From positions 1 through 36,656 of the forward strand of contig JAAUPS010000018.1 in assembly GCA_012033015.1 (NCBI GenBank): 36,656 nt of DNA, given 5' to 3'. Position 1 is the stretch's first letter; each line of letters opens with the position of its first letter. The translations under genes and the position numbers were made by a program. Origin of the DNA: Phormidesmis sp. RL_2_1 (lineage in GTDB: Bacteria > Cyanobacteriota > Cyanobacteriia > Phormidesmidales > Phormidesmidaceae). The notes beneath the pieces are model-generated. The model was not told the origin of the DNA and made no database searches. It saw only the letters and a program-made list of their open reading frames with translations. Shown here piece after piece: positions 919-35,551 of this stretch.

Positions 919-962
919 AAAACGCCATAAAAACGCCATAAAAACGCCATAAAAATGCCGAT
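919..962. repeat. 11-bp tandem repeat, four copies
   Basis: Unit AAAACGCCATA, three exact copies and a fourth degenerate one. It lies in the spacer between the leftmost gene and curT, and its last unit provides the A-tract (T-tract on the minus strand) of the curT terminator. Confidence 0.9.
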
Positions 963-985
963 AATTCCTCAACAGAATCATCGGC
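950..985 (-). terminator. Rho-independent terminator of curT
   Basis: On the minus strand, GCCGATGATTC pairs with GAATTATCGGC around a 7-nt loop (957-985) and is followed by ATTTTT. It starts 27 nt after the curT stop codon. Confidence 0.75.
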
Positions 986-1011
986 AAATTCTCGATATAA
1001 CGCGCTGAGCT

Positions 1012-1434
1012 TTAGAGTTGAGAAGCGCGACCCAAAATTTGATCCTTGAGTGCATCCATTTCGCTGGCTAGCTCACTGCGATTAGACGCTTTAAGCAAAT
1101 AGCGATAGACAAACCAACCGCTATACAGCAAGCCAATCAGCTCAAAGGTAGGTGCAAGGACGGGCACATCGTTAATCGCAGCCAAAACGGCCAGCGTCAA
1201 CTTAATGGACAGAAATAAACCGAAAAACAAGCCTAAGGCAATCAGCGGTCGCTTATATTCTCTAAAGAATTCACCAAAGTACTTGTCCAAGTCACCAAGC
1301 TTATCAACCACCTGAGCAGTGATTCGCTTGACTTGCTCAACTGTTTCTGACGTAGATGTATCGTTAGCCCCATTGGCAGCAGAGCCGCTGCCTTCAGCAA
1401 AGACGCTGTCGTCTGTTTTCAATTCCGTAGCCAT
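1012..1434 (-). CDS. curT: CurT/CAAD-domain thylakoid membrane-curvature protein
   Basis: 140 residues. The C-terminal ~95 residues match the CAAD/CURT1 family: an amphipathic stretch with KYFGEFFREYKRPL (~51-65), a first membrane helix (LIALGLFFGLFLSIKLTLAVLAAI), a short turn (NDVPVLAPTFELIG), a second helix (LLYSGWFVYRYLL) and a C-terminal amphipathic helix. The N-terminal ~45 residues are polar and low-complexity, as is usual. Family members bend thylakoid membranes at grana margins (plants) or at thylakoid convergence zones (cyanobacteria); the same domain is fused to some cyanobacterial aminoacyl-tRNA synthetases. This copy is free-standing and near typical length. The ATG at 1434 lacks a clear Shine-Dalgarno sequence. 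A terminator follows directly, so the gene is probably transcribed alone. Confidence 0.9.
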   Translation of the reverse strand: MATELKTDDSVFAEGSGSAANGANDTSTSETVEQVKRITAQVVDKLGDLDKYFGEFFREYKRPLIALGLFFGLFLSIKLTLAVLAAINDVPVLAPTFELIGLLYSGWFVYRYLLKASNRSELASEMDALKDQILGRASQL

Positions 1435-1614
1435 AGCAATCTATAAGAGTTAACAACATTGAGCTATGACCCCACCTAATAAAGCTCAAAAAGTTAACCG
1501 CCATCCCAAAAGTAATGGCAACCTCTAAAGCTTGAATCTATGGTAGAGCCCAAATTATTAAGGCACCATGATAGCGCCTTCACCTGATGGTGACTAGAGT
1601 CAATCGGTAGAATC

Positions 1615-1630
1615 ATTGACAAATGTCAAT
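1615..1630. promoter_or_regulatory. Palindrome ATTGACA-AA-TGTCAAT, possible operator
   Basis: Perfect 7-bp arms separated by 2 nt. The left arm contains TTGACA, so it could be a -35 element, a dimeric regulator site, or both. I found no clear -10 element at correct spacing, so its role is inference. Confidence 0.4.
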
Positions 1631-1777
1631 TTACACCCTTCTAGGTCACCTATCGATAACATTTGAATCTGCGACCTGCAGAAGGTGCTCCATTCATCAC
1701 AGACATATAGCGGTTCTCACTTGGCTAGAGTACAGATATTTTGGTGAAACCTTTGCAGGACAACGGGCCAAGTGATT

Positions 1778-1807
1778 AGCCTGTACCGAATGCATCCGGT
1801 ACAGGCT
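1778..1807. repeat. 30-bp near-perfect palindrome
   Basis: Arms AGCCTGTACCG and CGGTACAGGCT are exact reverse complements (11 bp). The 8-nt centre AATGCATC is itself palindromic apart from one mismatched pair. There is no T-tract on either side, so a terminator is unlikely. Confidence 0.8.
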
Positions 1808-2042
1808 ATAAAAGCGTACCGCAAAATTATCAGGATTCTTCATTTTTAGACGGTTGCCAGCATGTCGGCTCACAGCTTTTATCGTACTATATTTTGTACT
1901 ACTACAGGCGTGGTCGATACAAAGCGTAAACGATTGGCAAAATTTGTGACGCTTTCAGGCGTTAGCAGGCCAGCTCCTTCAGCATACTGATTACACTAAA
2001 AATACTGAACTATAGCGTTTCTCAAGTTCTAGGAGTGAACCC

Positions 2043-3728
2043 ATAGATAAACTTTACGGTGAGCTAAAAGGTCTCAAAACGAGTCAACTTAAAGCACTCA
2101 AAAATATCTATCATCAGCGTCTGCCGGTAGATCGCATTACCACGCCGGAATTTGCTCAGCGACTGGCTGCCATTAGTACCGACATTAATCAGGCGGTATG
2201 CGCCTATGTCGATAGACGCGGTCACGTTATTCGAGTTGGCGTAGGCAGTCCGCACAAAACTCAGATCCCGGTGCTGGAGCTGCCTCGCTATGGTGAAGAG
2301 CGGCTGTGTGGCATTCGCTGTATAGCGACTCAGCTCAAGGTAGAGCCGCCTAGTCACAGTGTGCTCACGGCCATGGCCATTCAACGCTTAGATGCGATCG
2401 CTCTGTTGACTCTGACTGGCACAGGCTTTAAGCGCAAAGGGGGTGGTGCCACGGGCTACATTCGCGAGGGTTACTTAGCCCATCTAGTGCCCCACCCGGA
2501 AGTCCAGTGGTCAGTGTCCGAGCCACTCACGTTAGATGAACTAGATGGGCAAGACTTTTTAGATCTCGCGGAAAGCTTAGAAGAAGAGTTTCGGCGGGTA
2601 TTTGTGGCGCAACAGGTCGATACTGACCATGAGCGCGTGCTGATTGTCGGGCTGATGACAGACAAAATGAACGAGGTCTCGTTTAACAATGGGCTAGAGG
2701 AGGTTGCTCGGCTGGTCGAAACAGCCGGTGGCGATGTGCTGCAAACGGTGAGGCAAAAGCGATCGCACCCCCATCCTAGAACCGTCATTGGGGCCGGTAA
2801 AGTCGATGAAATTGCCCTATTAGTACAGACTTTGGGGGTGAATTTGGTGGTATGCGATCGCGATCTTTCCCCCGCTCAAATCCGTAATTTAGAAGCCCAA
2901 ATCGGCGTCCGCGTCGTCGATCGCACCGAGCTAATCTTGGATATTTTTGCCCAGCGTGCCAAATCGGGTGCCGGGAAACTTCAAGTAGAACTTGCCCAGC
3001 TTGAATATCAGCTCCCTAGGCTCACCGGCCGCGGCCAAGCGATGTCCCGCCTAGGCGGCGGTATCGGCACTCGAGGCCCTGGTGAAACCCAGTTAGAAAC
3101 CGAACGCCGCGCCATTCAAAAGCGCATTAGCCGTTTGCAAAAAGACGTTACCCAGCTCCAAGAGCACCGAGCCCGACTGCGGCAGCGTCGTCAGCAGCAG
3201 TCCGTTCCCGCCATCGCCATTATTGGCTACACTAACGCTGGCAAGTCTACCTTGCTCAACCGGCTCACCGATGCTGATGTCTACGCAGCCGATCAGCTCT
3301 TCGCCACCTTAGATCCGACAACGCGACGCATCAGCATTGCTGACGATGACAGCATAGCGGTGCGATCGCTCGTGCTCACCGACACCGTAGGCTTTATTCA
3401 AGACCTGCCGCCCGCCTTAATGGATGCCTTTCGAGCCACCCTCGAAGAAGTCACCGAAGCCGATGCTCTCATCCATCTGGTCGATGCTAGCCATCCGGCT
3501 TGGCAAGCTCACATTCGCTCTGTCATGGGCCTACTAGCACAAATGCCCATCGCTCCCGGCCCCATTTTGCTGGTCTTTAACAAGCTCGATCAGGCCAACA
3601 CCAATGACCTAGAACTGGCGAAGGACGAATACCCCCAAGCTGTTTTTATTTCCGCCGCCAATAACCTAGGTATGAACACACTCCGACAAAAAATACTGCA
3701 GCTCATCGACTACGCTGTCACCAGTTGA
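2043..3728 (+). CDS. hflX: GTPase HflX, apparent ATA start codon
   Basis: Ribosome-associated GTPase that rescues or splits stalled ribosomes. 561 residues. Residues 1-150 are the cyanobacterial N-terminal extension (IDKLYGELKGLKTSQLKAL). The HflX domain and its coiled coil follow, with SRLGGGIGTRGPGETQLE. The G domain has G1 GYTNAGKST at ~395-403, DTVGFI as G3 and NKLD as G4. No ATG, GTG or TTG precedes the conserved N-terminus in this frame after the stop at 2013-2015. A good Shine-Dalgarno AGGAG (2031-2035) sits 7 nt before ATA at 2043, just where homologues start M-[D/E]. The first ATG-type start would only be at ~2271 and would remove ~76 conserved residues. Either initiation is at ATA or an ATG has been mutated or misread. 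Confidence 0.92.
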   Translation: MDKLYGELKGLKTSQLKALKNIYHQRLPVDRITTPEFAQRLAAISTDINQAVCAYVDRRGHVIRVGVGSPHKTQIPVLELPRYGEERLCGIRCIATQLKVEPPSHSVLTAMAIQRLDAIALLTLTGTGFKRKGGGATGYIREGYLAHLVPHPEVQWSVSEPLTLDELDGQDFLDLAESLEEEFRRVFVAQQVDTDHERVLIVGLMTDKMNEVSFNNGLEEVARLVETAGGDVLQTVRQKRSHPHPRTVIGAGKVDEIALLVQTLGVNLVVCDRDLSPAQIRNLEAQIGVRVVDRTELILDIFAQRAKSGAGKLQVELAQLEYQLPRLTGRGQAMSRLGGGIGTRGPGETQLETERRAIQKRISRLQKDVTQLQEHRARLRQRRQQQSVPAIAIIGYTNAGKSTLLNRLTDADVYAADQLFATLDPTTRRISIADDDSIAVRSLVLTDTVGFIQDLPPALMDAFRATLEEVTEADALIHLVDASHPAWQAHIRSVMGLLAQMPIAPGPILLVFNKLDQANTNDLELAKDEYPQAVFISAANNLGMNTLRQKILQLIDYAVTS

Positions 3729-3786
3729 GCAAGCCGGGTTGGAGCGATTGAACCTATCCGAAATTTAGCCATTGCCGAGTTAATTT

Positions 3787-3839
3787 ATCGAATTGGTCTA
3801 TCAAATGGGTTCATCGAATTGGTCTATTCAAATGGGTTG
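3787..3839. repeat. 26/27-bp tandem duplication
   Basis: Two adjacent copies beginning ATCGAATTGGTCTAT and ending AAATGGGTT, differing by one inserted T. They lie between the converging ends of hflX and the thioredoxin-like gene. Confidence 0.9.
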
Positions 3840-3856
3840 ACCAGATGAGTGTTGTC

Positions 3857-4384
3857 TCAGCGGGCTGGGCTGTAACCATCTGAAGCACCTGAAGCACCTG
3901 AAGCAGGCGAATCTTCTCCTTTAGCAGCAGGCTTAACGGCAGGCTGCTCAAATCCAGAGAGTCTGGCTAGTGTTCCTAAAGGCTGTACGCCTAAGTAGAT
4001 TTCACCATCAATCACCCAGGTAGGATAGGCTTCTATACCGCTCGCTTGGCACAAGGCTACTTGAGGGTTAAAGCCTTGGGGATCACACTCTACATAAGGA
4101 ATGCGATCAACCGCCCCACCAAAAGTTTTTTTTTTGGATGGCACAATGGGGGCACCAATAAGCGCCATACATTTTTGCCCCAGAAGCTGTCAATGATCAG
4201 CCAGGCGAGCCTCGTAGGAGCCGGGTAAGCTACTACAGCTCACCAAAAGCGTGAGCAAGACAGATGGGCCAACCATGACCAAGGGCCACTTGCCAGCGTG
4301 AAGCTGCTGCTTAAATACTTTGGTAAACCGTTTATGCACGTCTTTTTGATTCGCGGTGTTTTGATTTGCGGTGTTTTGATTCAC
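3857..4384 (-). pseudogene. Thioredoxin-like CPHC lipoprotein, two compensating frameshifts
   Basis: Read in one frame from GTG at 4384, the product has a lipoprotein signal (VMVGPSVLLTLLVSC, lipobox LVSC) and reaches LADH before a TGA at 4190-4192. Shifting frame there gives LTASGAKMYGAYWCPHCAIQ, the redox-active CPHC segment. At a run of ten T (ten A on the coding strand, 4126-4135) the original frame resumes with TFGGAVDRIPYVECDPQG and an Ala/Ser/Gly-rich tail. The joined product resembles the thioredoxin-like domain that follows VKOR in cyanobacteria, so a periplasmic thiol-disulfide role is likely. The gene lacks one base near 4192 and has one extra in the A-run, so the net shift is zero. 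It may be a pseudogene, a slippage gene, or a victim of two sequencing errors. The N-terminus carries a 15-bp repeat (NQNTA) and the C-terminus a 9-bp repeat (GAS). Confidence 0.75.
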
Positions 4385-4424
4385 GTTTTTGATGGATGAT
4401 CCACGGCGGCTGCAGTCAAAGGGT

Positions 4425-6234: not shown

Positions 6235-6236
6235 AG

Positions 6237-6741: not shown

Positions 6742-6827
6742 CTAAGGAACGCTCACCAAAACAAGGAACGCGCACGGCGCTAAGGAATGCTCACCCAGAC
6801 AAAGTCAGAATGCATCCGTACTTTGCT
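6742..6827 (+). repeat. ~86-bp interspersed repeat, copy 1
   Basis: It aligns over its whole length with the reverse complement of ~30420-30506. It contains three versions of a CTAAGGAATGCTCACC-like unit, then GACAAAGTCAGAATGCATCC and ACTTTGC. It lies just after the remA stop and before a terminator. Confidence 0.8.
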
Positions 6828-6904: not shown

Positions 6905-6936
6905 CTAACGGCTTATCAGACTAACGGCTTATCAGA
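6905..6936. repeat. 16-bp tandem duplication
   Basis: CTAACGGCTTATCAGA occurs twice in direct succession, 24 nt before the end of rpoC2. Confidence 0.9.
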
Positions 6937-6959
6937 ACTAAGCGAAAGGGCCATACCCT

Positions 6960-10930
<3,971 letters not shown>

Positions 10931-10975
10931 CTATGCCCTAAAACGCTTTGCTGCTGACTATGCTGGATTGACTGT

Positions 10976-11040
10976 ATTTTCAATGCGCTTATTTTCAATG
11001 CGCTCAACTAGATGCTCGATAGGCTTAATGCTCGATAGGC
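10976..11040. repeat. Two adjacent microduplications
   Basis: ATTTTCAATGCGCT is repeated with a 15-bp period (10976-11005), then ATGCTCGATAGGC twice with a 16-bp period (11012-11040). Both are in the 174-nt rpoC1-rpoC2 spacer. A weak GCAGG/CCTGC hairpin follows. Confidence 0.85.
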
Positions 11041-13198: not shown

Positions 13199-16100
13199 CT
13201 ATATGGGCGGCTGCATTGCTTGCATCTCACCCATAGGAGATTGTTCTGCCAACGGTTCCTCGCGAGCAACCGATTCGTAGGTCGGCCTTGAAGGCGTTCT
13301 GCGATTGCCCACATCTGCCATCAAATCAATCTCGCTATCACGGCTCGTACCATCTTCTTGGGTTTCTAGCTTATGCACAGCAATGTCTAAGCACAGCGAC
13401 TGCAGCTCTCGCATCAGCACTTTAAAGGATTCAGGCGTACCAGGTCGCGGAATAGCCTTGCCCTTAACGATCGCATTGAGCGCTTCGTTACGACCCTGCA
13501 TATCGTCAGATTTCACCGTCAGCAACTCTTGCAAAATGTAGGCTGCACCAAAGGCTTCTAAAGCCCAAACTTCCATCTCACCAAAACGCTGACCACCCTG
13601 CTGAGCTTTACCGCCTAGGGGCTGCTGAGTGACCAAAGAGTAGGGGCCTGTAGAGCGCGCGTGGATTTTATCATCCACTAAGTGAACCAGCTTCAGCATA
13701 TAAGATTGGCCCACCGTCACCTCTTGATCAAACGGCTCACCGGAACGGCCATCGTAGAGCTGAATTTTACCGGGATTATCTGGGTTAAAGACCCAGTCTT
13801 TACCCGTCGCTTCTCGCGCCTCCTTCATTTTCCCGTGGGTGGTTTCTAAAGAGGCTTCTTCGCCATACATTTCATCAAACGGCGTGACCTTAAATCGAGC
13901 ATTCAAGTTCTGCCCTGCCCAACCCAGCAGACACTCAAACACCTGGCCTACGTTCATCCGAGAAGGCACACCTAGGGGATTAAGGACGATGTCAATGGGC
14001 GTACCATCCGGCAAATAAGGCATGTCTTCCACCGGCAAAATTCGGGAAATAATCCCTTTGTTACCGTGACGGCCTGCCATTTTGTCACCGACTTGAATCT
14101 TGCGCTTTTGAGCGACATACACACGCACCACCATGTTGGCACCCGGCGGCAGTTCATCCCCCTGCTCTCGGGTAAATACACGGACATCAACCACCCGGCC
14201 TTTTTCCCCATTTGGCACCCGCAGGGAATTATCGCGAACATCTCGCGCTTTTTCTCCAAAAATGGCCCGCAGCAGCTTCTCTTCAGGGGGTTGGTCAGAT
14301 TCACCTTTTGGCGTCACCTTCCCCACCAAAATTTCACCGGAGCTGACCCAAGCGCCAATCCGAATGATGCCTGTTTCATCAAGTTGCCTGAGGGCATCTT
14401 CACCGACATTAGGAATTTCTCGCGTAATTTCTTCCGGGCCAAGCTTGGTTTGACGCGCCTCAATTTCATATTTTTCAATGTGAATGGAGGTATATACATC
14501 CTCGTAAACCAGCCGCTCACTGAGCAAGATGGCATCCTCGTAGTTGTAGCCCTCCCAAGGCATATACGTAATCAGCACGTTCTGGCCCAGAGCGATTTCA
14601 CCGCCCTCTGTCGCAGAACCATCTGCCATCACCTGACCAGCAACGACTTCGTCACCTTCATAAATCAAAGGTCGCTGATTCAAGCAGGTGTCTTGGTTAG
14701 AGCGCTGATATTTTTGCAGTTCGTAGGTGTGGGTGTTACCTTCTGGATCACGCACTTTAATCCAGTTCGCATCTAGGTAGGTCACCACGCCATCTGTCCG
14801 GCTGATAATCACCATACCTGAGTCGCGCGCTGCCTGAGCTTCTAGCCCTGTACCCACCAACGCCCGCTCAGGACGCAACAGAGGCACGGCCTGACGCTGC
14901 ATGTTCGAGCCCATCAAAGCTCGGTTGGCATCGTCATGCTCTAGGAAGGGTATCAAAGAGGTCGCTACCGAGATAATCTGGACTGGCGATACAGCGACAT
15001 AGTCCACTTCTTTTGGCGTGGTCACGGTAAAATCTTGGCGATAGCGCACTGGCACCGTCTCACCCAAAATATTATTGTTGGCATCAATGGGAACATCCCC
15101 TGGAGCCACACGCAAATCATCTTCTTCATCAGCGGTCATATATACCGCAGGTTTATCTTTGATGATCTGACCATTCACGACCGGGAAAAAAGGTGTCTCA
15201 ATAAAGCCGAAGTCATTCACCCGAGCGTGAGTTGCCAAAGAGCCAATCAAACCAGCATTGGGGCCTTCAGGTGTTTCAATCGGACAAATCCGACCATGGT
15301 GAGAAGGATGGATATCGCGGACAGCAAAACCCGCCCGCTCACGGGTCAAGCCACCTGGGCCAAGCGCACTAATCCGGCGCTTATGCGTTAGCTCAGCGAG
15401 TGGATTGGTTTGATCCATAAATTGCGATAGCTGACTAGAGCCAAAAACTCCTTGATAGCAGCGACGAGCGGTTTGGGGTTCACTAAAGATGCCGGCGTGA
15501 GAGAATCGGCATCAGAAACCGTCATACGCTCGCGGATGATGCGCTCTAGTCGATTCAGACCAACGCGTACTTGGTTTTGGAGCAACTCACCGACTGAGCG
15601 CACTCGGCGATTACCCAAGTGATCAATGTCATCGGGATTACCAATGTCAAACTCTAGATTGATCAGGTAGTCAATCGCAGCGACGATGTCTTGTGGGGTT
15701 AAGACCCTAGTAAATTCAGGAATATTCAGACGAAGTTTACGATTGAGCTTATGACGGCCAACCTTCCCAAGGTCATAGCGCTTAGGATCAAAAAACCTGG
15801 AATCCAGCAGTTGCTGTCCGCCATTGACAGTGGGCGGCTCACCGGGACGCAGCTTACGGTACAGCTCTAATAGGGCCTCTTCTTCACTAAATTGACCCTC
15901 TTTTTCAATCGTCTTTTGGAAGTACTCAGGGTGACGCAGCGAATCAAAGATTTCGCTATCACTCAGTCCTAGAGCTTTGAGCAACACTTGAGCAGAAAGC
16001 TTACGTGTTTTATCAATACGAACCCACACCAAGTCGTTCTTATCGGTTTCAAACTTTAACCATGCACCCCGGTTGGGGATCAAGTTGGCGGTATAGGTAC

Positions 16101-16766: not shown

Positions 16767-17190
16767 TGAGCATAAAACCTCTATGAGGGGAAAATTTCTG
16801 TTGCCTGACTGCCTGCTGGCCCATATCGAATTTGGCCATGTTAAAAATTCTAAACTCACTCGTATCTGAGAAGGAAAGTTAGGAAATCTCAAAAGTAATC
16901 GCAGTGTATGATTGACTGGTATAGAGGGGAAAGCAGCGCTGAGCGATCGCACGCAAACAGTGCAGCAAACGCAAAACTAAAGATAAATAGGGTGCCTAAA
17001 GCCCTGTCTGACAGGCAATTGAGAGTCCATCCTAAATAGCAACCTATAAACGGCATGGGGCAAAGTCAAAGCAAAAATAAGGCGCAAGAGATATAACAGT
17101 ATTTTTTCGCTTATCCATCATAATCTAAACGTGGATCTTAAAAACATCAGATTGTCAAGATAGTCACTGACCCGCTTAGCCAATGCTCAC

Positions 17191-17214
17191 GTTCGATAGC
17201 GTTCGATAGCGTTC
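17191..17214. repeat. 10-bp tandem duplication
   Basis: GTTCGATAGC twice in succession plus a partial third GTTC, downstream of tatD. Confidence 0.85.
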
Positions 17215-18107: not shown

Positions 18108-18247
18108 AACTCCAGCTAAAACCTCAGTTAAACAAAATCTACTAAACAAAATCTACGGAAAGATGACCGCCAAACCAACAGTTGATCATGGTCGATCTAG
18201 CACGTTCCACCAGCACTTCTCCAAACCCCGATATCTCAGCTAAATCC

Positions 18248-18306
18248 CAGCTAAGCACTTCGCAGCCAAGCATTTCGCAGCCAAGCATTTCGCAGCCAAG
18301 CACTTG

Positions 18307-20986: not shown

Positions 20987-21071
20987 GAAGCCCAATCAAC
21001 CAAGCCCCAATCAACCAAGCTCAATCAACCCAGCTCAATCAACCAAGCTCAATCAACCAAGCTCAATCAGC
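20987..21071. repeat. 14-15-bp tandem repeat, six copies
   Basis: Unit AAGCTCAATCAACC with minor variants. The array runs from the Uma2-like gene's upstream side into the stop codon of the small unknown gene. Confidence 0.9.
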
Positions 21072-21562: not shown

Positions 21563-21592
21563 CAGAATGTATTCACACAGAATGTATTCACA
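21563..21592. repeat. 15-bp perfect tandem duplication
   Basis: CAGAATGTATTCACA twice in direct succession. Confidence 0.95.
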
Positions 21593-21624
21593 GCGGCTAT
21601 GACCTAAGCGCACTGTAGATAGTT

Positions 21625-21669
21625 CCAAATTAGATCGCTCCAAATTAGATCGCTCCAAATTAAATCGTT
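21625..21669. repeat. 15-bp tandem repeat, three copies
   Basis: CCAAATTAGATCGCT twice exactly, then CCAAATTAAATCGTT, and a decayed fourth start. Confidence 0.95.
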
Positions 21670-22657
21670 TCAAATTGCTCAGTCATGCCATCATCAACCC
21701 GCCATCCCTGATCAAATCGATGCCGTAGTGATTAAGCATTCGAGTTTTATGACTTTAATTTTTGGCCTAAACCGAATGACTGAAAAACAGTTGATATTCT
21801 AACAGTCTAATTAAGATAATTTGATGACTCAAGCGTTTGCTATTTAACCACTATATTCAAAATTTTCTTGATGCAAAAAGCCAACATACGCTCCTAACCA
21901 GACCATTCGGATTAATGGCTGCTTTGCAAAATATCAGCCAATCTGAATGGCTTAAGCAATCTGACAGATGCAATATTAAAAGCTTGAGTTTTATCTTTAA
22001 ATATGAGCTGCAAATCAAATAGAACAATATCACTCGATTGATCGCGAAGATCAACTGAGACAGCAAATATTCTCCCAGGCTTGATCGAGTTTTATACCGA
22101 TCCAGAGAGATCCGGAGATCTGCATAAAAATCAGCCAAATCGCTTAATTAAGAGCAAGATTAGTTGATATCTTGTCGCCATTACACCACAGTCTGCGTGG
22201 ATATACCGTGCGTGTTCTTGTAAACCCCGTATTCTTTAGGTACATATAGCGAGATCATCGGCTCAACATATCAAAGAGTATTGTTAGTAAGCGATTCATT
22301 TAAGTATTTGTGAGCAAGCCTTTTGAAAGATTAGCAAATCAACCTTTTTTGCTATTAAAAAATAGGTTTATCATCCCTGATTGTTTATTCCAAAAATTGT
22401 CTATCTTCTTATCAGAAGTTCGCTATAAAATGCGGTTTATCTAATCAATTTGTTTTGTTAATTAGCACGCTCAGTCGGGTTAAAGAGCAGACATGAACTG
22501 ACTAGAAAATGCTTTTTATTGGCTTCTGTGGGAGGACATGAAAGGTCGTTTCATAACTTTGCGCAGCGTTGGGCCTATAGCTAGAATCAACTGGCAGCCA
22601 TCCAGATTGAATAATAGCCAATCCAGCACGCGTACTTTTGCTAGGGGTGTTTTACTC

Positions 22658-25592: not shown

Positions 25593-28355
25593 ATGCAGAT
25601 TCTCTCTGTCACCCTGACCAATTTTAAAACGCATCAAGACCGGCAATTTGATTTTCAGCCAGGAACAAACGCCATCTGTGGCGAAAATGGCGCAGGCAAA
25701 ACCAGCATTTTGGAAGCGATCGCCTGGGTGCTCTTTAACTACCAGGGCAGCTACAAAAAAGAAGACCTCATTCGAAACGGTGCTAGCAGTGCTCAGGCCA
25801 GAGTGGCCTTTATCTCAAACCGCGATAGCCGCACTTACGAAGTCCAGCGCTCCACCTTAAACGGCTATACCCTATTTGACCCACAGCTTAATGAGCGTCT
25901 GCCTTACACCCGCACGAAAGACGAAGTGCTGCCTTGGCTCAGGCAACATTTAGGCGTAGCGCCAGGGATAGATCTTGGCCAGCTATTTGCCAATACCATT
26001 GGCGTACCGCAAGGCACCTTTACGGCTGATTTTTTACTGAGTACAGAAAAACGCAAGCCAATTTTTGACACCATTTTGAAGGTCGAAGAATACCGGGCTA
26101 CTTACCAGCAAAGTAATAGTCTGAGAAAGTATGCGGAAGCGCAGGTACAGCGGCTCAAACATTTGATCGCGCAATACGAAGAGACACTGCAAGGCTGGAG
26201 TGAGCTGCAGAACCGTCAGCAGCAGCTACAGATGGAAATTACCCAAGCAGAGACTCAGCTCGCTGGCCTAGAGGAAAAGAGCCATCAGCTTGCTCAACAC
26301 AGACAAGTCATGATGGAAAAAGCTGAGCAGGTACAAACAGCCCGCAATCAGCAGCAGGCGCTGATATCTCAAATGGAAGCGCAGCAACAGCGGCAACAAC
26401 AAATTGAGAAATCCTTGGCAAAGGCCCAACAGGCGGCTGAGATTGCCAAAGGCAGCACAGTGCCTATGCCGGGTTTGTTGCGGCCGAGAGCCAAATTGCA
26501 GCTTTAAATGCCACTGGCCAACAGCGGCAGCAAGTGTTGCAACAACAGCAGCAGGTTCAGCAATCGCTGAACCATAGCCAAAGCGAGCTATCGCGACTAG
26601 AAGCCAAGCTAGAGCAGTTGATTGCCGATGAAAAGGAACTGGCTAATTTGGCGGCAGATGTGGCACGGCAAACTGAGTTAGAAGCTGGGCGAAAGACCCT
26701 TCAGCAACAGATACAAGCTTTTGCGAACGGACGTTTTCAAAAGCATAATTTGAGCCAACAGGCTGAGGTAATTGCACAGGAAATTGAGCAGATTGATGGT
26801 CAGCTCAAACGACTGAACCATTTGCAAAGCACCCTTGAGAACATTCCCCAGTGGGAGCAGCAGCTCAGCCGACTGCAACAACAGCTCAGCCGGATAGATG
26901 CCGCTCAACAATTTGAGCAGGAGCTGCGATCACTGATCGAAAAAGGCCAGCAGCAGCAAGGCGAGTATCGTCAGCAGGTCGCGATGGCATTGAAAACATT
27001 AGAGGCATGGGTCAGTGACATTGCTGGGATCAGCTCTGAGGCGATCGCACCTGTCAAAGCTGCGCTGTTTCAAGGCGGAATGCTCTCAAAAGCAACTCTG
27101 ACAGGTCTCAACAACATTTTGGCAGATCTCACTGCGCAGACCAATCAGGCCCAGATCAAACAGCAGCAGCGAGAATTGCATACTCAGTTGCAACTAGCCT
27201 ACGCCCAAAAAGCTGAGGTTATGGGCATCGGCTCACACACTGCCAAGCAGGCTCAACTGACAACTCAGCAAGCCCAAATTCAGCAGTCGATAGCGCAGCT
27301 CGATCAACAACTGACCACAGAATCTGAGACGGTTGCAGCCCTTGACCAGATAGAGAAACAATTGCAACAGCTTGAAAATCCGCAGGCAAAGCAGCAGTTG
27401 CTCATTAAAAAAGCTCAAACAGCAACAATCTGTTCAAAAACAATACAGCGCTCTACAAGCAACTCGAGCTGCTGCTGCGCAATCGCTCCGAGAAATCACC
27501 AGCCAACTGCAAGACTTTGAGCAGCTCGATGGGCAAATGCAGATCCAGCAGCAAGCGAAACAAACCCATCAAGCCGGATATTTACTGTATTTACAAAATC
27601 AACAGATGGCGCAACAGCTTCAGGGTCTGCAAACAGAGCATGAAACTGTGCTTGCCCTGCTCGCTCAACAGCAAGCCCACGATGCCGAACTCACCCACCA
27701 ATTAACAGCGCTCACCGCCGACTTTGATCCAGCAGTTTTTAGCGCCCTTGAAAAACAATACACAGACATTAATTCTCAAGCCGACCGGCTAAGGGGCAGC
27801 TTGCCCCAGATCAAAGGGCGATTAGCAGATCTCAGTGTTCAACTGAATTCACTAGCAGCTATTGCGAAAAAACGTGACCAAGCGGCGCAAGAGGTGAAGC
27901 AGCGCGATCGCATCAAACGATTTATCAACTATGCGCGCAAAGTGTACAAAGCGGCTGGCCCACGCATTACCGAACGCTATGTCCATCATATTTCTCGCGA
28001 AGCTGATCGGCTCTTTCGCGAGCTGCTAGGGCGAGCCAACGTCGCTTTAAGCTGGAGCGCCGACTATGAAATAACCGTTCAAGAAGGGGCCCATACGCGG
28101 CGATTTATGAACCTTTCAGGCGGCGAGCAAATGTGCGCAGCTTTGGCCGTCCGCTTAGCATTACTCAAAGTCTTAGCAGATATTGATGTGGCCTTTTTTG
28201 ATGAGCCCACGACGAATATGGATAGACCTCGGCGAGCAGCATTGGCTGAAGCTATCGCCCGGATAAAATCGTTTAATCAACTGTTCGTCATTAGTCACGA
28301 TGACACCTTTGAGCAAGTGACAGAAACCGTAATCACAGTAACACGGGAAATTTAA
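25593..28355 (+). pseudogene. SbcC/Rad50-like ATPase, two compensating frameshifts
   Basis: Three overlapping frames make one product of ~920 residues. The N-terminus has the split-ABC head: FKTHQDRQFDF and Walker A GENGAGKTSILEAI (residues ~30-43). Long Gln-rich coiled coils follow. The C-terminal head has the signature LSGGEQMCAALAVRLALLKV, Walker B VAFFDEPTTNMD and the His-switch FVISHDD. Near 26450 one base is missing (frame 2 continues with QHSAYAGFVAAESQIAAL). At an A6 run (27407-27412) one base is extra, returning to the first frame (KKLKQQQSVQKQY). Family members are DNA-end processing ATPases working with the nuclease SbcD/Mre11, which is not in the window. No CxxC zinc-hook motif appears anywhere in the coiled coil. 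Sequencing error would explain the shifts; a real pseudogene is the alternative. Confidence 0.82.
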
Positions 28356-28432: not shown

Positions 28433-28569
28433 AAGGAGCCTTAGGCAGCTAAATCGAGTTAACCAGCTATTTTCAGGCTACACCTGTGAGTTCGCCTTGG
28501 GTAAATTGGTCTTTAACAGCGTCGGTGCTGTATAGATCACTTTCGCTGAAATCGTTCCTGACCCTACTT

Positions 28570-30411
28570 ATGAACAACCATTCGAGCGTGGCAGAATCTG
28601 CCTCGGCCAATCGTGCCTCGGCCAATCGTGCCGCGGTCACGACTGGTGCTTCGTCAGCAACAGCAGCAGCAGCGGACGCAGCGAAAGTAACAGAACCAGC
28701 GGCAGCACCGCCTGCAAATCAAGACGCGCTCAATACCAAAACCCTCAAGCAAATCTTTCAGCTCTCGCCCATTGGGATGACCATTTTAGATTTGGATGGG
28801 CGTTTTTTAAGTGCCAACCAGAGTTTTTGCGATGCAGTAGGCTACGCAGAATATGAGCTGATTGCCCTGTCTTTTAAAGACCTCACCCATCCTGAAGACG
28901 TGCCGTTGCTGTGCTCATTAGGTGAGCAGCTTTTGGCCGGTAAGCGCCAGCATTTTCAAATCGAGACCCGCCATTGGAGCAAGGACGAAAAACCCCTGCA
29001 TGTGGGCCTGACGGTCACGATGGTGCGCGATGGCTATCAACGACCGATTTGCTTTTTGCTTCAGGTGATTAATCTGACGGCGCAAAAGTGGATGGAGGCC
29101 CAGCTTCGTCATCGCGCTTTTTATGATGGGCTGACAGGGTTGGCCAATCGGGCACTGTTTGTCAATCGCTTAGAGCAGGCTGTAATTCGGCTAGAGCGAA
29201 ATACTAGCGCTCAGTGCGCGGTGCTCTTTTTAGATCTGGATCGGTTTAAGGTGATCAACGATAGCTTGGGCCACAATATTGGTGATAAGCTGCTGAGCGC
29301 GTTGGCAGGACGGTTAGAGGCTTGTATTCGTCGTTGCGATACGTTGGCTCGGTTAGGAGGCGATGAGTTTGCCATTTTGCTAGAGGATATTGATGGTTTG
29401 GAAGATGCCATCATGGTGTGCGATCGCATCCACAACAGCCTCAAAACACCCTTCAAACTAGATAAATACGAAGTTTTCGCCAACATCAGCATCGGCGTGG
29501 TGTGCAGCAGCGTTGGCTATGAAGAATCCAGCGATTTATTGCGCAATGCCGACACCGCCCTCTATCGGGCTAAAGCCCAAGGCGGTGCTTGCCACACCAT
29601 TTTCGATCAGACCATGCATCAGCGGGCAGTCGCCCTGTGGCAAATGGCTACCCAAGCTCAGTTTGCCGTGCAGCGAGAGGAACTCACCTTACACTATCAG
29701 CCCGTCATTGATATTAGCAATCGTCGAGTCTTGGGTGTAGAAGCGCTCATTCGCTGGAACCATCCGCAGTACGGCGCGATTTCTCCAGGAGAATTTATCC
29801 CCGTCATGGAGGAAACAGGCGTGATCACAATGATTGGTAAATGGGTGCTTCGAGAAGCCTGCCAGCAAATTTGCCAGTGGCAGCAACAACTCCCCCATCA
29901 CGACCCCATCAAACTTAACGTCAATCTATCGGCCCGACAACTGGCACAAAAAGACCTCGCTGAACAGGTCAACACTATTTTGAAGGAAACGGGTTTGGCC
30001 CACAAACATCTGCGGCTAGAGATTACCGAAACCGCTATCATGCAAAACTTAGTCGAAGCGATCAAAGTTCTCCAAGAACTGCGGGCGCTAGATGTGTGCT
30101 TATGCATTGATGATTTTGGCATCGGCTATTCGTCTTTGAGCCGACTACAGCAGTTACCTATCGATATTCTCAAAATTGATCGTTCCTTTGTGCAAAATAT
30201 CGGCGCAAAAGGAGAGAATACCGAAATTGTCCGCACCATTATCGATCTGGCCAATAGCCTTGGCATGGACATTGTCGCCGAAGGCGTGGAAACAGAAGCA
30301 CAGCTAGAAGGGCTCAGGGCTTTAGGCTGTCAAAACGTACAGGGATTTTATTTCGCCAAACCGATGACACCCGATATCGCCCTCGAATTTATCAAAAAGT
30401 CTAATCAGTAG
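28570..30411 (+). CDS. PAS-GGDEF-EAL cyclic-di-GMP signalling protein
   Basis: 613 residues from the ATG at 28570; a GTG at 28486 would add 28 residues, and neither has a good ribosome site. The N-terminal ~50 residues are Ala/Ser-rich with a perfect 15-bp duplication. A PAS domain follows (~60-175, FQLSPIGMTILDLDGRFLSANQ onward). The GGDEF domain has an intact GGDEF at 263-267, and RHRAFYDGLTGLANRALF marks its start. The EAL domain has EALIRWNHP at ~391 plus DDFGIGYSS and EGVETEAQ. Both catalytic signatures are intact, so it could make and degrade cyclic di-GMP, with the PAS domain as sensor. No membrane helix is evident, so it is probably cytosolic. It is monocistronic between two terminators. 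Confidence 0.95.
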   Translation: MNNHSSVAESASANRASANRAAVTTGASSATAAAADAAKVTEPAAAPPANQDALNTKTLKQIFQLSPIGMTILDLDGRFLSANQSFCDAVGYAEYELIALSFKDLTHPEDVPLLCSLGEQLLAGKRQHFQIETRHWSKDEKPLHVGLTVTMVRDGYQRPICFLLQVINLTAQKWMEAQLRHRAFYDGLTGLANRALFVNRLEQAVIRLERNTSAQCAVLFLDLDRFKVINDSLGHNIGDKLLSALAGRLEACIRRCDTLARLGGDEFAILLEDIDGLEDAIMVCDRIHNSLKTPFKLDKYEVFANISIGVVCSSVGYEESSDLLRNADTALYRAKAQGGACHTIFDQTMHQRAVALWQMATQAQFAVQREELTLHYQPVIDISNRRVLGVEALIRWNHPQYGAISPGEFIPVMEETGVITMIGKWVLREACQQICQWQQQLPHHDPIKLNVNLSARQLAQKDLAEQVNTILKETGLAHKHLRLEITETAIMQNLVEAIKVLQELRALDVCLCIDDFGIGYSSLSRLQQLPIDILKIDRSFVQNIGAKGENTEIVRTIIDLANSLGMDIVAEGVETEAQLEGLRALGCQNVQGFYFAKPMTPDIALEFIKKSNQ

Positions 30412-30421: not shown

Positions 30422-30506
30422 AAGTTAAGGATGCATTCTTACTTTGTCTTGATGAGCATTCCTTATCCTGGCGAGCATTCTTTGTATTGGCGAGCATTCC
30501 TTATAT
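30422..30506 (-). repeat. ~86-bp interspersed repeat, copy 2
   Basis: Its reverse complement matches copy 1 (6742-6827) along its length: three AAGGAATGCTCGCC-like units, then GACAAAGTAAGAATGCATCC and TTAACTTTGC. It starts ~10 nt after the GGDEF-EAL stop codon and ends ~14 nt before a terminator. Confidence 0.8.
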
Positions 30507-31086: not shown

Positions 31087-31734
31087 TTAGTTGTGCGGCG
31101 GTCGGTTGAGCTTGCGCAGATGATGTAGGCTCTGGACGATGTAGTCGGCGTGGGCTTGCGCAGGGAAGTGGTCATCAGAGGCTAAGTAACCAGGGGCTAG
31201 GTCGTTAGCCGCTAGGTCATTCGGCGCTAGGTAAACTGTGGCGGTATGAGCGTTGCGGCCTGTGAGCAAATCGAATGGGTGATCGCCGGTCATCACTGCA
31301 TCTGTAGCCGCCGCTGACCATGCTGCCAATAGTTTGAAGATGCCGTCAGGGTGGGGCTTAGGCCGACAGCAGCTACGGCCCACAATATTATCAGCACAGA
31401 AAAAATCAGCGAGGCCGCAGGCTGCTAGGGTGGTACGGGCAATGTCTTTGGTATTGCGAGTCAAGATGCCGATGTGTTTATTTTGACTGAGCAAGTCACT
31501 GAGCAGTTCGGGCGCGCCGGGTTGAGGGGTGGCTTGGCGAGCGATGTCGATCTCTATGTCGGCGAGCTGCCGGTGACATTGAGCGAATTGCTCGGGCGGT
31601 AGGCGATTTAAAGCTTCTAAGATGGGTTCGTTTTCAGGTAGGCCGAGGGCGCGGCTGATGGCGGGGAAATCGTGACGGCTTTCGGTGAGGGTGCCGTCCA
31701 TGTCAAAAATCCAGGCAGTGCGGGTGTAGAGCAT
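31087..31734 (-). CDS. HAD-family hydrolase (phosphoglycolate-phosphatase-like)
   Basis: 215 residues, ATG at 31734. HAD motif I is FDMDGTLTES (nucleophile Asp11, acid Asp13), motif II ILTRNT, the Lys of motif III in CRPKPHPDG, and motif IV TGDHPFDLLTGRNA. The cap between I and II is a small helical one (HAD subfamily IA). Such enzymes remove phosphate from small metabolites; the substrate is not predictable. Near the C-terminus the sequence carries four 5-residue repeats (LAPND, LAAND, LAPGY, LASDD), encoded by four 15-bp units at 31171-31230, an expansion not expected in the family. Confidence 0.88.
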   Translation of the reverse strand: MLYTRTAWIFDMDGTLTESRHDFPAISRALGLPENEPILEALNRLPPEQFAQCHRQLADIEIDIARQATPQPGAPELLSDLLSQNKHIGILTRNTKDIARTTLAACGLADFFCADNIVGRSCCRPKPHPDGIFKLLAAWSAAATDAVMTGDHPFDLLTGRNAHTATVYLAPNDLAANDLAPGYLASDDHFPAQAHADYIVQSLHHLRKLNRPPHN

Positions 31735-31754: not shown

Positions 31755-31801
31755 GAAGGTGGCAGACATGAAAGGTGGCAGACATGAAAGTTGACAGACA
31801 T
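31755..31801. repeat. 15/16-bp tandem repeat, three copies
   Basis: Unit GAAAGGTGGCAGACAT; copies of 15, 16 and 16 bp. It lies upstream of the HAD gene. An 11-bp duplication, TTAGGCATTCA, follows at 31861-31882. Confidence 0.9.
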
Positions 31802-31950: not shown

Positions 31951-33195
31951 ATGACGACGATTAACGATAATTATCTCAAGCTTAAAGCCGGTTACCTATT
32001 TCCTGAAATTGGCCGTCGGGTCAAGGCGTATACAGACCAGCACCCTGATGCCTCTGTGATTAAGTTAGGCATTGGGGATGTGACTGAACCATTGCCGGAA
32101 GCTTGCCGCACGGCGATGATTGCGGCGGTCAATGAGATGGGCGATCGCAGCACGTTTAAAGGCTATGGCCCGGAGCAGGGGTACCTGTGGCTTAGGGAGG
32201 CGATCGCCCAGCACGACTTCCAAGCTCGTGGGTGTAACGTTGACGCCTCTGAAATATTTATTTCCGATGGATCTAAATGCGATTGCGGCAACATTCTCGA
32301 TATTTTTGGCAACGACAACAGGATTGCCGTGACCGATCCTGTTTATCCGGTATATGTAGATACCAACGTGATGGCAGGTCATACGGGCGAAGCTGATGGC
32401 ACAGGAAAGTACGAGGGCATTACCTATTTACCGATTAGCGCCGATAACGACTTCGCTGCGCAGATCCCATCTCAAAAAGTTGATTTGATCTATCTTTGCT
32501 CACCTAACAATCCGACGGGAGCAACGATGAGCCGAGAGCAACTCAAAGCTTGGGTTCAGTATGCCAATGCCAATGGCTCAATCATTTTGTTCGATGCAGC
32601 CTATGAAGCTTTTATTACAGATGACTCAATTCCCCACTCAATTTACGAAATTGAGGGAGCAAGAGACTGCGCCATTGAGTTTCGATCTTTCTCTAAAAAT
32701 GCAGGCTTTACAGGCACCCGCTGCGCCCTCACAGTGGTGCCAAAGTCTTTAACCGGTAAAGCAAAAGACGGTGCAAATGTGGAAATTTGGAGCCTGTGGA
32801 ACCGTCGCCAATCGACAAAATTCAATGGGGTCTCTTACATCGTCCAAAAGGCGGCTGAGGCAGTCTATTCAGAGGCAGGCCAACAGCAAACGAAAGCGTT
32901 GGTTAGCTTTTACTTAGAAAATGCAAAAATCATTCGAGACAAGCTAACGACGGCGGGCATTCAGGTGTATGGCGGTGTAAATGCGCCTTATGTGTGGGTA
33001 AAAACACCGGATCAACTCACAAGCTGGGACTTTTTTGATCAGCTCCTGAAAACCTGTAATATTGTAGGCACACCAGGTTCAGGTTTTGGTGCAGCGGGCG
33101 AGGGATACTTTCGGATCTCGGCTTTTAATAGTCGTGAAAATGTCGAAGAAGCCATGCAGCGGATTAGTGAAAAGTTCACAGCGGCCAAAGTTTAA
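31951..33195 (+). CDS. dapL: LL-diaminopimelate aminotransferase
   Basis: 414 residues. A fold-type I PLP aminotransferase that converts tetrahydrodipicolinate directly to LL-diaminopimelate for lysine and peptidoglycan synthesis, a route shared by cyanobacteria and plants. Visible features are the N-terminal [30 protein letters not shown], the phosphate-site [10 protein letters not shown], the strongly conserved SPNNPTGA, and the PLP Lys249 in [12 protein letters not shown]. The length is typical. No other lysine gene lies nearby, but the next genes include a peptidoglycan amidase. Confidence 0.97.
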
Positions 33196-33278
33196 TACCA
33201 ACTCATGCAGGCCATTTCAAGGGTTGCATTGATGGGAAAGCCTCTTTACAGGGAAAGCATCTTTTAACAGGCAGGTAT

Positions 33279-33308
33279 AGCCATCGCCAGATGGATTTGG
33301 CGATGGCT
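33279..33308 (+). terminator. Hairpin after dapL, weak terminator candidate
   Basis: AGCCATCGCC and GGCGATGGCT are exact complements around a 10-nt loop, but there is no T-tract. Confidence 0.4.
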
Positions 33309-33474
33309 GACCCCATAGCGCTATACGCATCAACGCTTTCACCTAAATATTGATCAGGTGTAGCGCCAGGTGGCGATCGCGATATTAAAACAGGCCGTAA
33401 AGGGAGACACATAGGCATGTCGGCAATCTTTATAGCTGGCAACAAAACATCTAAAGGTTCCTGTGTCTTTTGCA

Positions 33475-33641
33475 ATAAAGTACTGTCAGAAAAAGTATTG
33501 TCCCAAAAAGTACTGTCAAAAGGTGGTATATCGAACAAAAGGTGGTGTATCGAAGCATCTAGCGAGCTGTAAGGGCAGCTTCACTAGCTTCACTGATTTG
33601 TTTTTTGATTTGTTTTTTTGATTTGTTTTTTTGATTTGTTT
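33475..33641. repeat. Three consecutive microduplication arrays
   Basis: (1) AAAAAGTACTGTCAA-like, 15 bp, three copies (33475-33519). (2) AAAAGGTGGTATATCGAAC-like, 19 bp, two copies (33518-33555). (3) GATTTGTTTTTTT, about 13 bp, four copies (33595-33641). The sequences are unrelated to each other. Confidence 0.9.
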
Positions 33642-33661
33642 AGAGTGTCGGGAGTAGCTGG

Positions 33662-35551
33662 ATGGGTAAGGGCTGGGGACATGACGACAGATATTACTGG
33701 AGATGTATAACATTTGGGCTGTTGGGCGGGCTCGCTGGGGCAATGGTTCCTTTAGAAGCCAGCGCCCATTCCTCTACGCTTACGCAGGTCGCCTTAGCAC
33801 AGGCGACCCCAGCACAGGTGGCCCCAGCACAGGCGGCCCCAGCACAGATCGCTCAGGCCGCTATGCAGTCTTCTCCTGGCAGTTTGTTTGTAGCCTATCC
33901 GCCATCTGAACACCAGACAGTGGCGGATCGCATTTTCTTTATTGGGACAGCCGATCCGAGCGAGCCAGTGACGATTAACGGTCAAGTCATTGAAAATCGC
34001 AGTGGCGATGGCCATTTTGCGCCGAGCTTGCCGTTGGCCATGGGAGCAAATACATTTACCCTAGTGCAGGGCGAGGAAAGCCTAACGCTAACGATTACTC
34101 GCGTTGCGATTGAGCCACCGCTACCGGAAGGCGTTGGGTTTGCAGAAGGGACGCTATCGCCTGCCAATGATATGGCTCGGATGCCGGGAGAGCTGATTTG
34201 TTTGAGTGCGATCGCCGCTCCGCCCAACGCCACCGTCTCTGCAACCCTAGGGAATCAAACCATTGCTCTAACACCGCAAACCAGCGTCGATCTACCGCCC
34301 AACTCATCTGTACTGACCGCTCAGACAGCGCCTGTCACCCTGAGCGCCACCGAGTACGCAGGCTGCATACAGCCAGACATACCAGGCGAACTCGGCAACC
34401 CTCGCTTTACCGTCGAGAGCCAAGGTGAAACCGTCACCGCCACTGCCCCTGGCCAAATCAGCATTCTCTCGCCGACTAACTTTCAGGTGGCGGAAGTAAC
34501 CGTACCCCAAGGGGTGGCTCGCACCGGCCCGAGCACTGATTATTCACGCATTACCCCTCTACCAGCAGGCACCCGCGCCGCCATCACTGGCCGCGATGGA
34601 GAATGGCTCCGACTCGACTACGGCGGCTGGATCAAAGCAGCGGAAACCGAAATCAGCAGTGCTTCTGTACCACCCACTAGCATTATTCGAGGCATTAGCG
34701 CCAATCAGATCGGAGATTGGACTGAGATTGTTTTTCCTTTGCAAACCCCGGTACCCATATCTGTTCGCCAAGCACAACAATCTTTAACGCTGACGCTGCA
34801 CAACACCATCCCTCAGACAGACACGATTTACTTCTCGAACGATCCGGTGGTCGAAAGAATGGATTTTAATTCTGTTCTACCCGATAGTGCTGAATATACA
34901 TTTCACTTTAAAGCACCTCAGCAATGGGGCTACAAGCTGCGCTATGAAGGGACTAGTCTCATTCTTTCATTGCGCCATGCACCGGCTGACAACAGTTTGC
35001 GCGAGGCGACTATTTTGCTTGACCCAGGCCATGGCAGCAACGCTGACTTAGGGGCTCGTGGGCCGACGGGCTATCCTGAAAAAGACGTTACGTTAATTGT
35101 CTCCAAGCTGTTGCGCGATGAATTGCAGGCAAGGGGTGCAACCGTGGTGATGACTCGCGAAGGCGACGATGATTTGTACCCTGCTGACAGAGTAGACATC
35201 ATTGAAGCAACAGAGCCGACTATGGCACTGAGCCTTCACTATAACGCTTTGCCCGATGCGGGAGATGCCTTGGGAAGAGCAGGTGTTGGAACGTTTTGGT
35301 ATTATCCTCAGGCGCACAGCTTAGCGACTTTTTTACATAACTATTTGGTTCAAGCCTTAGGCCGTGAGTCCTATGGAGTGTATTGGAATAACTTGGCACT
35401 TACTCGACCTACTGTGACACCTGCTGTGTTGCTAGAGTTGGGCTTTATGATCAATCCCGAAGAGTTTGAGTGGATCACGGATGAAAACGCTCAAAAAGAG
35501 CTGGCTAGAACCCTAGCAGACGGTATAGAAGCTTGGCTAGACAGCCAATAG
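33662..35551 (+). CDS. N-acetylmuramoyl-L-alanine amidase with SH3b and AMIN-like regions
   Basis: 629 residues. GGAG sits 8 nt before the ATG. An N-terminal signal (ITFGLLGGLAGAMVPLEASA) is followed by a Gln/Ala/Pro-rich stretch encoded by four 15-bp units (33785-33844). The middle has a bacterial SH3-like domain (~270-330, VAEVTVPQGVARTGPSTDYS) and an AMIN-like region (~340-440). The C-terminal Amidase_3 domain has zinc ligands His457 (DPGHG), Glu473 (YPEKDV) and His526 (SLHYNAL), and catalytic Glu592 (LLELGFM). It cleaves the amide bond between N-acetylmuramic acid and the peptide stem in the periplasm, likely in cell separation or septal-junction remodelling. RNase III follows after 4 nt, so the two are probably co-transcribed. 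Confidence 0.93.
   Translation: MGKGWGHDDRYYWRCITFGLLGGLAGAMVPLEASAHSSTLTQVALAQATPAQVAPAQAAPAQIAQAAMQSSPGSLFVAYPPSEHQTVADRIFFIGTADPSEPVTINGQVIENRSGDGHFAPSLPLAMGANTFTLVQGEESLTLTITRVAIEPPLPEGVGFAEGTLSPANDMARMPGELICLSAIAAPPNATVSATLGNQTIALTPQTSVDLPPNSSVLTAQTAPVTLSATEYAGCIQPDIPGELGNPRFTVESQGETVTATAPGQISILSPTNFQVAEVTVPQGVARTGPSTDYSRITPLPAGTRAAITGRDGEWLRLDYGGWIKAAETEISSASVPPTSIIRGISANQIGDWTEIVFPLQTPVPISVRQAQQSLTLTLHNTIPQTDTIYFSNDPVVERMDFNSVLPDSAEYTFHFKAPQQWGYKLRYEGTSLILSLRHAPADNSLREATILLDPGHGSNADLGARGPTGYPEKDVTLIVSKLLRDELQARGATVVMTREGDDDLYPADRVDIIEATEPTMALSLHYNALPDAGDALGRAGVGTFWYYPQAHSLATFLHNYLVQALGRESYGVYWNNLALTRPTVTPAVLLELGFMINPEEFEWITDENAQKELARTLADGIEAWLDSQ

Follow-up and report, generated by a model that had tools for sequence, protein, structure and literature searches.

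The window analysed here is a 36,656-bp stretch of DNA from Phormidesmis sp. RL_2_1 that makes up one entire contig (G000:C406) of a draft genome (G000), and it is strewn with short tandem duplications. These arrays are likely the standing record of an elevated, mostly homology-independent process of short duplication, and the pattern points to a mutation bias that continues to act in G000 and also in G001, an assembly from a second species of the genus. A first-pass annotation of the window had described such duplications as pervasive, with a preferred unit of 15 bp. Their abundance was borne out in the genome sample at a level far above chance; the preference for 15 bp was not, as the units in spacers form a band of approximately 9–19 bp.

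Exact arrays were defined as at least two full identical copies of a primitive unit with at least 12 matching bases at the lag, and units of 8–60 bp were included in the genome counts. Exact counting can split one imperfect array into two. Genes were taken as greedy reading frames of at least 100 aa, so that short genes fall into the spacer fraction and spurious frames into the genic one. The G000 draft comprises 5.56 Mb in 436 contigs (95.7% complete and 7.0% contaminated, so that some sampled stretches may be foreign) and was sampled as 42 stretches, the window and 41 others, totalling 411 kb (84.5 kb spacer and 327 kb genes). The G001 sample covered 441 kb (73.1 kb spacer and 367.8 kb genes), that of G002 400 kb, and those of G003–G006 60–80 kb each. 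G001–G006 are congeners of G000, with TatD identities of 74–81%. Among the matches listed, which may omit the records nearest to the window, the closest named relative by TatD is the metagenome-assembled genome Leptolyngbya foveolarum ULC129bin1 (75% identity). Loci L039, L044, L045–L074, and L135–L143 were left out of the main density counts; L039, a Gloeocapsopsis locus, held zero arrays.

The G000 sample contained 131 exact arrays in spacers (15.5 per 10 kb) and 69 in genes (2.1 per 10 kb), and the G001 sample 90 (12.3 per 10 kb) and 91, respectively. G002 held 26 spacer arrays (3.8 per 10 kb) and nine genic ones. A third-order Markov shuffle of an earlier 403-kb sample of G000 returned 0 exact arrays, and 0 were found in four 50-kb stretches (200 kb) of E. 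coli K-12. When arrays at least 80% alike are counted, they occupy 13.3% of the spacer DNA of G000 and 13.7% of that of G001, compared with 0.8% of shuffled spacers. Median copy numbers are low (2.4 in G000 and 2.3 in G001), with 18% and 22% of spacer arrays, respectively, reaching approximately three or more copies. The first-pass annotation had proposed looking for the arrays in an independent assembly; that of the other species, G001, has the same phenomenon.

Beyond these genomes, spacer arrays of 9–19 bp occur at 1.0–4.8 per 10 kb in G003–G006, and none was found in 17.8 kb of spacer from 13 Nodosilinea-like loci. We also sampled 21 other cyanobacterial genomes at 14–140 kb each, where densities depend on few arrays. 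Ten of them had no spacer array of this size (G007, G018, G019, G021, G026, G028, and G033–G036), seven had exactly one (G008, G009, G012, G014, G016, G029, and G037), and four had several (G013, 11; G024, 3; G027, 6; G030, 6). The last four, which belong to other genera or families, show 4.3–9.2 spacer arrays per 10 kb in the same size band; their arrays of 9–17 bp lie at loci L118–L119, L184–L190, and L192–L195. The array trait is patchy across cyanobacteria, and the highest spacer densities are those of G000 and G001, which are also the two best-sampled genomes.

Spacer units of 9, 10, 11, 12, 13, 14, 15, 16, 17, 18, and 19 bp were counted 4, 6, 9, 14, 25, 17, 21, 15, 5, 4, and 5 times in G000, with single arrays at 8, 20, 24, 26, 34, and 51 bp. 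The corresponding counts for 9–18 bp in G001 are 5, 7, 5, 12, 17, 23, 9, 6, 3, and 1, with single arrays at 24 and 26 bp. Mean spacer units are 13.9 bp in G000 and 13.2 bp in G001. Counts at 12–16 bp are statistically flat in G000 (chi-square p = 0.34) and uneven in G001 (p = 0.009), where the peak is at 14 bp. A spacer peak at 14–16 bp had been the expectation of the earlier annotation; the distribution contains these lengths but is broader. Longer units are much rarer: among arrays at least 80% alike, units of 9–19 bp outnumber those of 20–40 bp by 261 to 21 in G000 and by 273 to 9 in G001 (12- to 30-fold). At its lower edge, counts in G000 with a lowered threshold were 32 observed against 19.8 expected at 6 bp, 5 against 4.8 at 7 bp, 4 against 1.8 at 8 bp, and 11 against 0.8 at 9 bp.

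Genes pass a different selection of lengths. Of the units of at least 9 bp in G000, 60 of 69 in genes are divisible by three as compared to 45 of 130 in spacers (Fisher 5e-13), and 80 of 89 as compared to 28 of 90 in G001 (Fisher 1e-16). Two earlier statements are thereby upheld, namely that coding arrays keep frame and that arrays sit in spacers as well as in genes. Genic units are mainly 12 and 15 bp, which are the lengths that selection for frame chiefly leaves. The apparent preference for 15 bp probably arose from this frame filter together with the small size of the window, which holds 15 exact arrays, 12 of them in spacer, and 5 of those 12 with a 15-bp unit.

Homology at the duplication ends was assessed in a clean set of 90 two-copy arrays with units of at least 12 bp (47 from G000, 24 from G001, and 19 from G002). 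Arrays whose flank was at least 60% alike at the same lag (a possible decayed third copy), those with at least 0.6 of a third copy, and those with units below 12 bp were dropped. No extra matching bases were present at the ends of 39 arrays, one in 16, and four to ten in 19, where random ends would give approximately 50, 25, and 1. With zero or one extra base in 55 of the 90, most arrays, though not all, were probably born without microhomology. A set of 56 near-blunt arrays, in which decayed flanking copies were left in, gave no hairpin excess over random spacer for either the unit (p = 0.63) or its single-copy context (p = 0.76). No clear junction motif was found in the same 56, the most skewed cell by eye being C at position −2 (2 of 56). 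Array density in G000 is nearly independent of spacer orientation (16.0, 15.8, and 15.7 per 10 kb in co-directional, convergent, and divergent spacers), and, when G000, G001, and G002 are pooled, successive fifths of co-directional spacers contain 25, 24, 25, 23, and 15 arrays, the last fifth being lower.

Relatives were compared for the ancestral, single-copy state. In the HAD-like phosphatase gene of the window, four diverged 15-bp units accompany a 15-residue insertion in a conserved loop, which is short and without the insertion in all seven orthologues (G001–G006 and G009); judged from these alignments, this array is clearly derived. For the perfect 15-bp duplication between rpoC1 and rpoC2, a loose alignment gives a single copy in G002 and G003, and suggests that this duplication is derived as well. 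The region of the amidase array varies among relatives, too much so for judging its ancestral state. The rpsT-tatD spacer measures approximately 196 bp in G000 and 215 bp in G001, each with its own different arrays, as compared to 53–66 bp in 13 outgroup loci and 60 bp in ULC129bin1. It contains no exact arrays in G005 (126 bp), G003 (155 bp), and G004 (88 bp). Growth of spacers through the duplication process is plausible, though other causes contribute too. None of the orthologous spacers examined in relatives held an exact array of G000, and nucleotide alignment to relatives reached 3 of 200 arrays. A gap-based search of the seven genus genomes, and within genomes, returned three tandem gaps (two of 6 bp and one in a dispersed 51-bp family), few because the relatives are too divergent. 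Comparing the proteins of genic arrays with relatives gave few informative pairs, and a 5.9-kb query for a second allele of the window within its own bin matched the window alone.

The process that we propose would copy approximately 9–19 bp (mean 13–14) once, head to tail, and mostly without end homology. A minority of arrays would then add copies, and point mutation would erode them. In spacers the duplications look neutral and would lengthen the spacer, and in genes most survivors would add whole codons. The molecular step that we favour would start from opposite-strand nicks 9–19 bp apart, or from a break with such a stagger; the overhangs would be filled by repair synthesis and rejoined without Ku, and the duplicated length would equal that of the stagger. 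An upper limit near 20 bp would follow if the duplex between the nicks must melt. This staggered-nick fill-in is a tentative candidate and we regard it as somewhat doubtful. Less doubtful, though still held with reserve, is the broader proposition that a bacterial lineage without detectable Ku may make largely homology-free duplications of 9–19 bp often enough that approximately 13% of its spacer stays recognisable as such.

Repair genes were surveyed in 38 genomes. Ku was not found in any of them, with Bacillus subtilis the sole control genome to give a match. MutS matched in all 38 (34 above the curated cut-off), SbcD in 37 (34 above the cut-off), and the PolA 5′-exonuclease domain in 37. 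An ATP-dependent ligase domain was present in 25, including all seven genomes of the genus, and was missing in the array-bearing G013, G024, G027, and G030. None of these five, the only repair functions tested, separates genus genomes of high array density from those of low density. The first-pass annotation had invoked a mechanism that makes duplications, for example slippage over a fixed loop or end-joining. A duplication-making mechanism is still the best reading of the data, whereas loop slippage as a general route is countered by the absent hairpin excess and the scarcity of end homology in 55 of 90 arrays (four to ten extra bases in 19 of 90 notwithstanding), and end-joining in the Ku sense by the result for Ku.

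A number of observations weigh against the proposed process. Four to ten extra matching bases, expected in approximately one array, occurred in 19 of the 90 and in 14 of the 47 from G000 (in G002 this excess was small, 2 of 19), and arrays with no extra bases were fewer than expected, so that slippage between short repeats would suit some of the arrays. The trait also reaches beyond the genus, with 9.2 and 6.3 spacer arrays of 9–19 bp per 10 kb in G027 and G030, and the genic density of G030 (3.6 per 10 kb) exceeds that of G000. Orientation densities are less even outside G000 (co-directional, convergent, and divergent: 11.1, 14.5, and 10.0 per 10 kb in G001; 4.8, 0, and 2.0 in G002, from few arrays), and the longest rpsT-tatD spacer, that of G002 (341 bp), has zero exact arrays. 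The lower edge of the band is blurrier in G001, where 7-bp duplications numbered 5 against 0.4 expected in a 13.4-kb spacer sample. Staggered breaks do not predict a lower limit near 9 bp, which would be better matched by a loop escaping mismatch repair, and the nick step would have to proceed without Ku, the usual joining factor. MutS, SbcD, and the PolA 5′-exonuclease are found in high- and low-density genus genomes alike, and a genetic cause was not found among them. Finally, one array is clearly derived and a second is suggested to be so; cases are few because most spacers are too divergent to align with the relatives at hand.

The most probable rival is polymerase slippage between short direct repeats, in which loops of 9–19 bases would evade both mismatch repair and large-loop repair and the band would mark the gap between the two. 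Mismatch repair handles small loops and large-loop repair larger ones, and a gap of this kind would account for both edges of the band. The 19 clean arrays with four to ten matching bases agree with it, as does slippage-like growth to approximately three or more copies in about a fifth of spacer arrays. It is, nevertheless, rather unlikely as the general explanation: although arrays with none are fewer than chance predicts, zero or one extra base in 55 of 90 means that more than half of births probably occurred without microhomology, hairpin excess was not found, and MutS and SbcD are matched in 38 and 37 of the 38 genomes, respectively.

Footprints of transposable elements, that is, target-site duplications left after precise element loss, would also be blunt and two-copy. 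Target-site duplications have a fixed or nearly fixed length, however, whereas units here spread over 9–19 bp; arrays of three to six copies exist, and the 56 near-blunt arrays lack a clear junction motif. Judged from the arrays themselves, this origin is very unlikely. Functional repeats under selection, such as binding sites or regulatory spacers, might be suspected where arrays lie close to gene starts, as some do. Most units are unrelated, however, positions within co-directional spacers are near-even, G000 density does not depend on gene orientation, and exact arrays of G000 recur at none of the orthologous spacers examined in relatives; we consider selection of this kind highly improbable. 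An artefact of assembly or sequencing might be suspected from the fragmented draft and from frame changes that split each of rpoB, rpoC2, and polA, which are either errors or real lesions. We give this almost no credence as a general account, since genic units are multiples of three in 60 of 69 cases and an assembler is blind to frame, and since density and size band are almost matched in G001, assembled from a different species. Given the frame breaks in these three genes, individual arrays may still be wrong. Two known repeat types were rejected: copies are adjacent, without the unique spacers of a CRISPR array, and pentapeptide repeat proteins do not apply to noncoding spacer arrays or to coding units that differ between genes (by eye). 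One coding array, GADLS at L077, resembles a genuine pentapeptide repeat.

The STRR heptamers of cyanobacteria have 7-bp units of shared sequence. The arrays described here are likewise short tandem repeats in cyanobacterial spacers; their units, however, are 9–19 bp and mostly unrelated. At the 12-base threshold a 7-bp unit occurs in 0 of 131 G000 and 0 of 90 G001 spacer arrays, and in seven Microcystis loci the spacer arrays included 18 with a unit of 7 bp and 6 with one of 8 bp, which agrees with the earlier remark that the arrays look different from STRR heptamers.

A mechanistic parallel comes from mammalian cells, in which Schimmel et al. 2021 (PMC8355091) describe small tandem duplications at staggered breaks, formed with near-blunt ends by fill-in and then joining, most of which cover nearly the whole overhang. 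According to the same article, these duplications need Ku80, and those at 3′ overhangs also CST and Pol alpha-primase. The arrays reported here resemble them in being short, head-to-tail, near-blunt, and of arbitrary sequence in the majority (55 of 90), without a clear junction motif. They differ in occurring in a bacterium, with Ku not found in the genomes surveyed, and in being known from sequence, breaks not having been observed. Scattered short-unit satellites of prokaryotes, chiefly of Methanosarcina and with at least four copies, are described by Subirana and Messeguer 2019 (PMC6749651). Approximately 40% of those satellites are unique in sequence, multiples of three were taken as coding, and short-unit satellites are often related to microsatellites; the string “cyanobact” is absent from the main text of that article. 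Both phenomena are scattered, short-unit, and very uneven between species, but the median copy numbers here are well below four, and the comparison needs a uniform definition. With a criterion that differs from that of the satellite survey, at least four exact copies of a unit of at least 10 bp, we counted 7 arrays in G000 and 13 in G001, which corresponds to 17 and 29.5 per Mb, respectively. Microsatellites in Leptolyngbya-like species are the subject of PMC8619395. A bounded 9–19 bp duplication process in cyanobacteria was not reported in the titles and abstract openings among the matches listed by our searches of open-access literature, which is a weak negative.

If the proposed process is real, a bacterial lineage would have its own equivalent of the small-duplication signature of eukaryotes, produced by a repair route not yet described, and with it a slow source of longer spacers and of in-frame insertions in proteins. 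Bacterial spacers are usually viewed as kept short by deletion. In these genomes a measurable part of the spacer DNA, along with many linker insertions, appears to stem from one duplication process of bounded size, whose record differs strongly between congeners. Such genomes lend themselves naturally to the question of which repair step produces or suppresses short tandem duplications in cells without Ku. The finding also cautions against reading the tandem motifs of such spacers as regulatory sites.

As the first-pass annotation had stated, the arrays do not, for the most part, belong to a single repeat family, and units differ from array to array by eye. One dispersed 19-bp motif (TCTTGGTGAGCATTCCTT-like) departs from this rule; it is often tandem or inside a 51-bp unit and has 35 matches with at most three mismatches in the 411 kb of G000. 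Elsewhere it was matched once in 441 kb of G001, twice in 400 kb of G002, not at all in 67 kb of G005, and once in the 200 kb from E. coli. The motif appears to form a repeat family specific to this species and separate from the one-off arrays, and four of the five 19-bp spacer arrays of G000, together with the 51-bp one, belong to it.

Genes in the window include hflX, a gene for an HhoA/HtrA-type protease, rpoB-rpoC1-rpoC2, tatD, and hisD, among others, with rpsT, read from the sequence translation, adjoining tatD. Tandem Repeats Finder (TRF) returned 40 rows for the window, 11 of them with period 15. All nine 15-bp arrays listed by the first-pass annotation are among the TRF rows, with ends 0–25 bases from those originally given, and its further places at 919 (11 bp), 3787 (26 bp), 6905 (16 bp), 17191 (10 bp), 20987 (14 bp), 31755 (16 bp), and 33518 (19 bp) likewise correspond to rows. 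The place at 36291 has no TRF row; an imperfect 19-bp duplication is visible there by eye. The neighbouring pairs 20991/21032 and 33594/33601 may each be a single imperfect array that was counted twice.

Table 1 Tandem arrays and repeat features of the window, in window coordinates unless a locus is named.
Position	Strand	Unit	Copies	Location and remarks	Source
365, 4344, 10975, 18248, 18645, 21563, 21616, 28595, 31196, 33477, 33796		15 bp		starts of the rows with period 15	TRF
919..964		11 bp	~4	spacer	TRF + exact run
3787..3838		26 bp	2	spacer; outside the 9–19 band	TRF
4344..4393		15 bp	~3.5	spacer between hflX and the HhoA/HtrA-type protease gene; 86% matches	TRF
6905..6941		16 bp	2	spacer	TRF + exact
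10975..11004		15 bp	2	rpoC1-rpoC2 spacer; perfect duplication, zero extra matching bases at ends	TRF + exact
17190..17214		10 bp	2.5	tatD-rpoB spacer	TRF + exact
18129..18156		14 bp		edge of tatD reading frame / rpsT-tatD spacer; perfect duplication	TRF + exact
18248..18305		15 bp	~4	rpsT-tatD spacer	TRF
20988..21069		14 bp	~6	spacer; one 15-bp variant	TRF + exact
21563..21592		15 bp	2	spacer; perfect duplication	TRF + exact
21616..21676		15 bp	~4	spacer; 89% matches	TRF
28595..28636	+	15 bp		near N-terminus of PAS-GGDEF-EAL protein gene (28486-30411); in-frame, residues SANRA	TRF
31171..31232	-	15 bp	4	HAD-like phosphatase gene (31087-31734); in-frame, diverged units	TRF
31756..31801		16 bp	~3	spacer adjoining the HAD gene	TRF + exact
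33477..33518		15 bp	~3	spacer; 81% matches	TRF
33517..33554		19 bp	2	spacer	TRF
33594..33641		13 bp	~4	spacer	TRF + exact
33785..33852	+	15 bp		near N-terminus of amidase gene (33662-35551); in-frame, Q-V-A-P-A type	TRF
6744-6800 and 30447-30505; L014, L016, L017, L077, L082		19 bp		dispersed 19-bp motif	

The frame changes that split three housekeeping genes lie at 10259-10295 (rpoC2), at 15388-15418 (rpoB), and near 3950-4030 of L151 (polA), and are probably sequencing or assembly errors. A 964-aa protein encoded at 22538-25432 matches an EACC1-type caspase domain at 103.9 bits, under the curated cut-off of 140. An SbcC/Rad50/SMC-like ATPase gene follows at 25593-28355, seemingly across two or three successive frames, and AT skew is strong (0.274 at 26001-28000) within this stretch.

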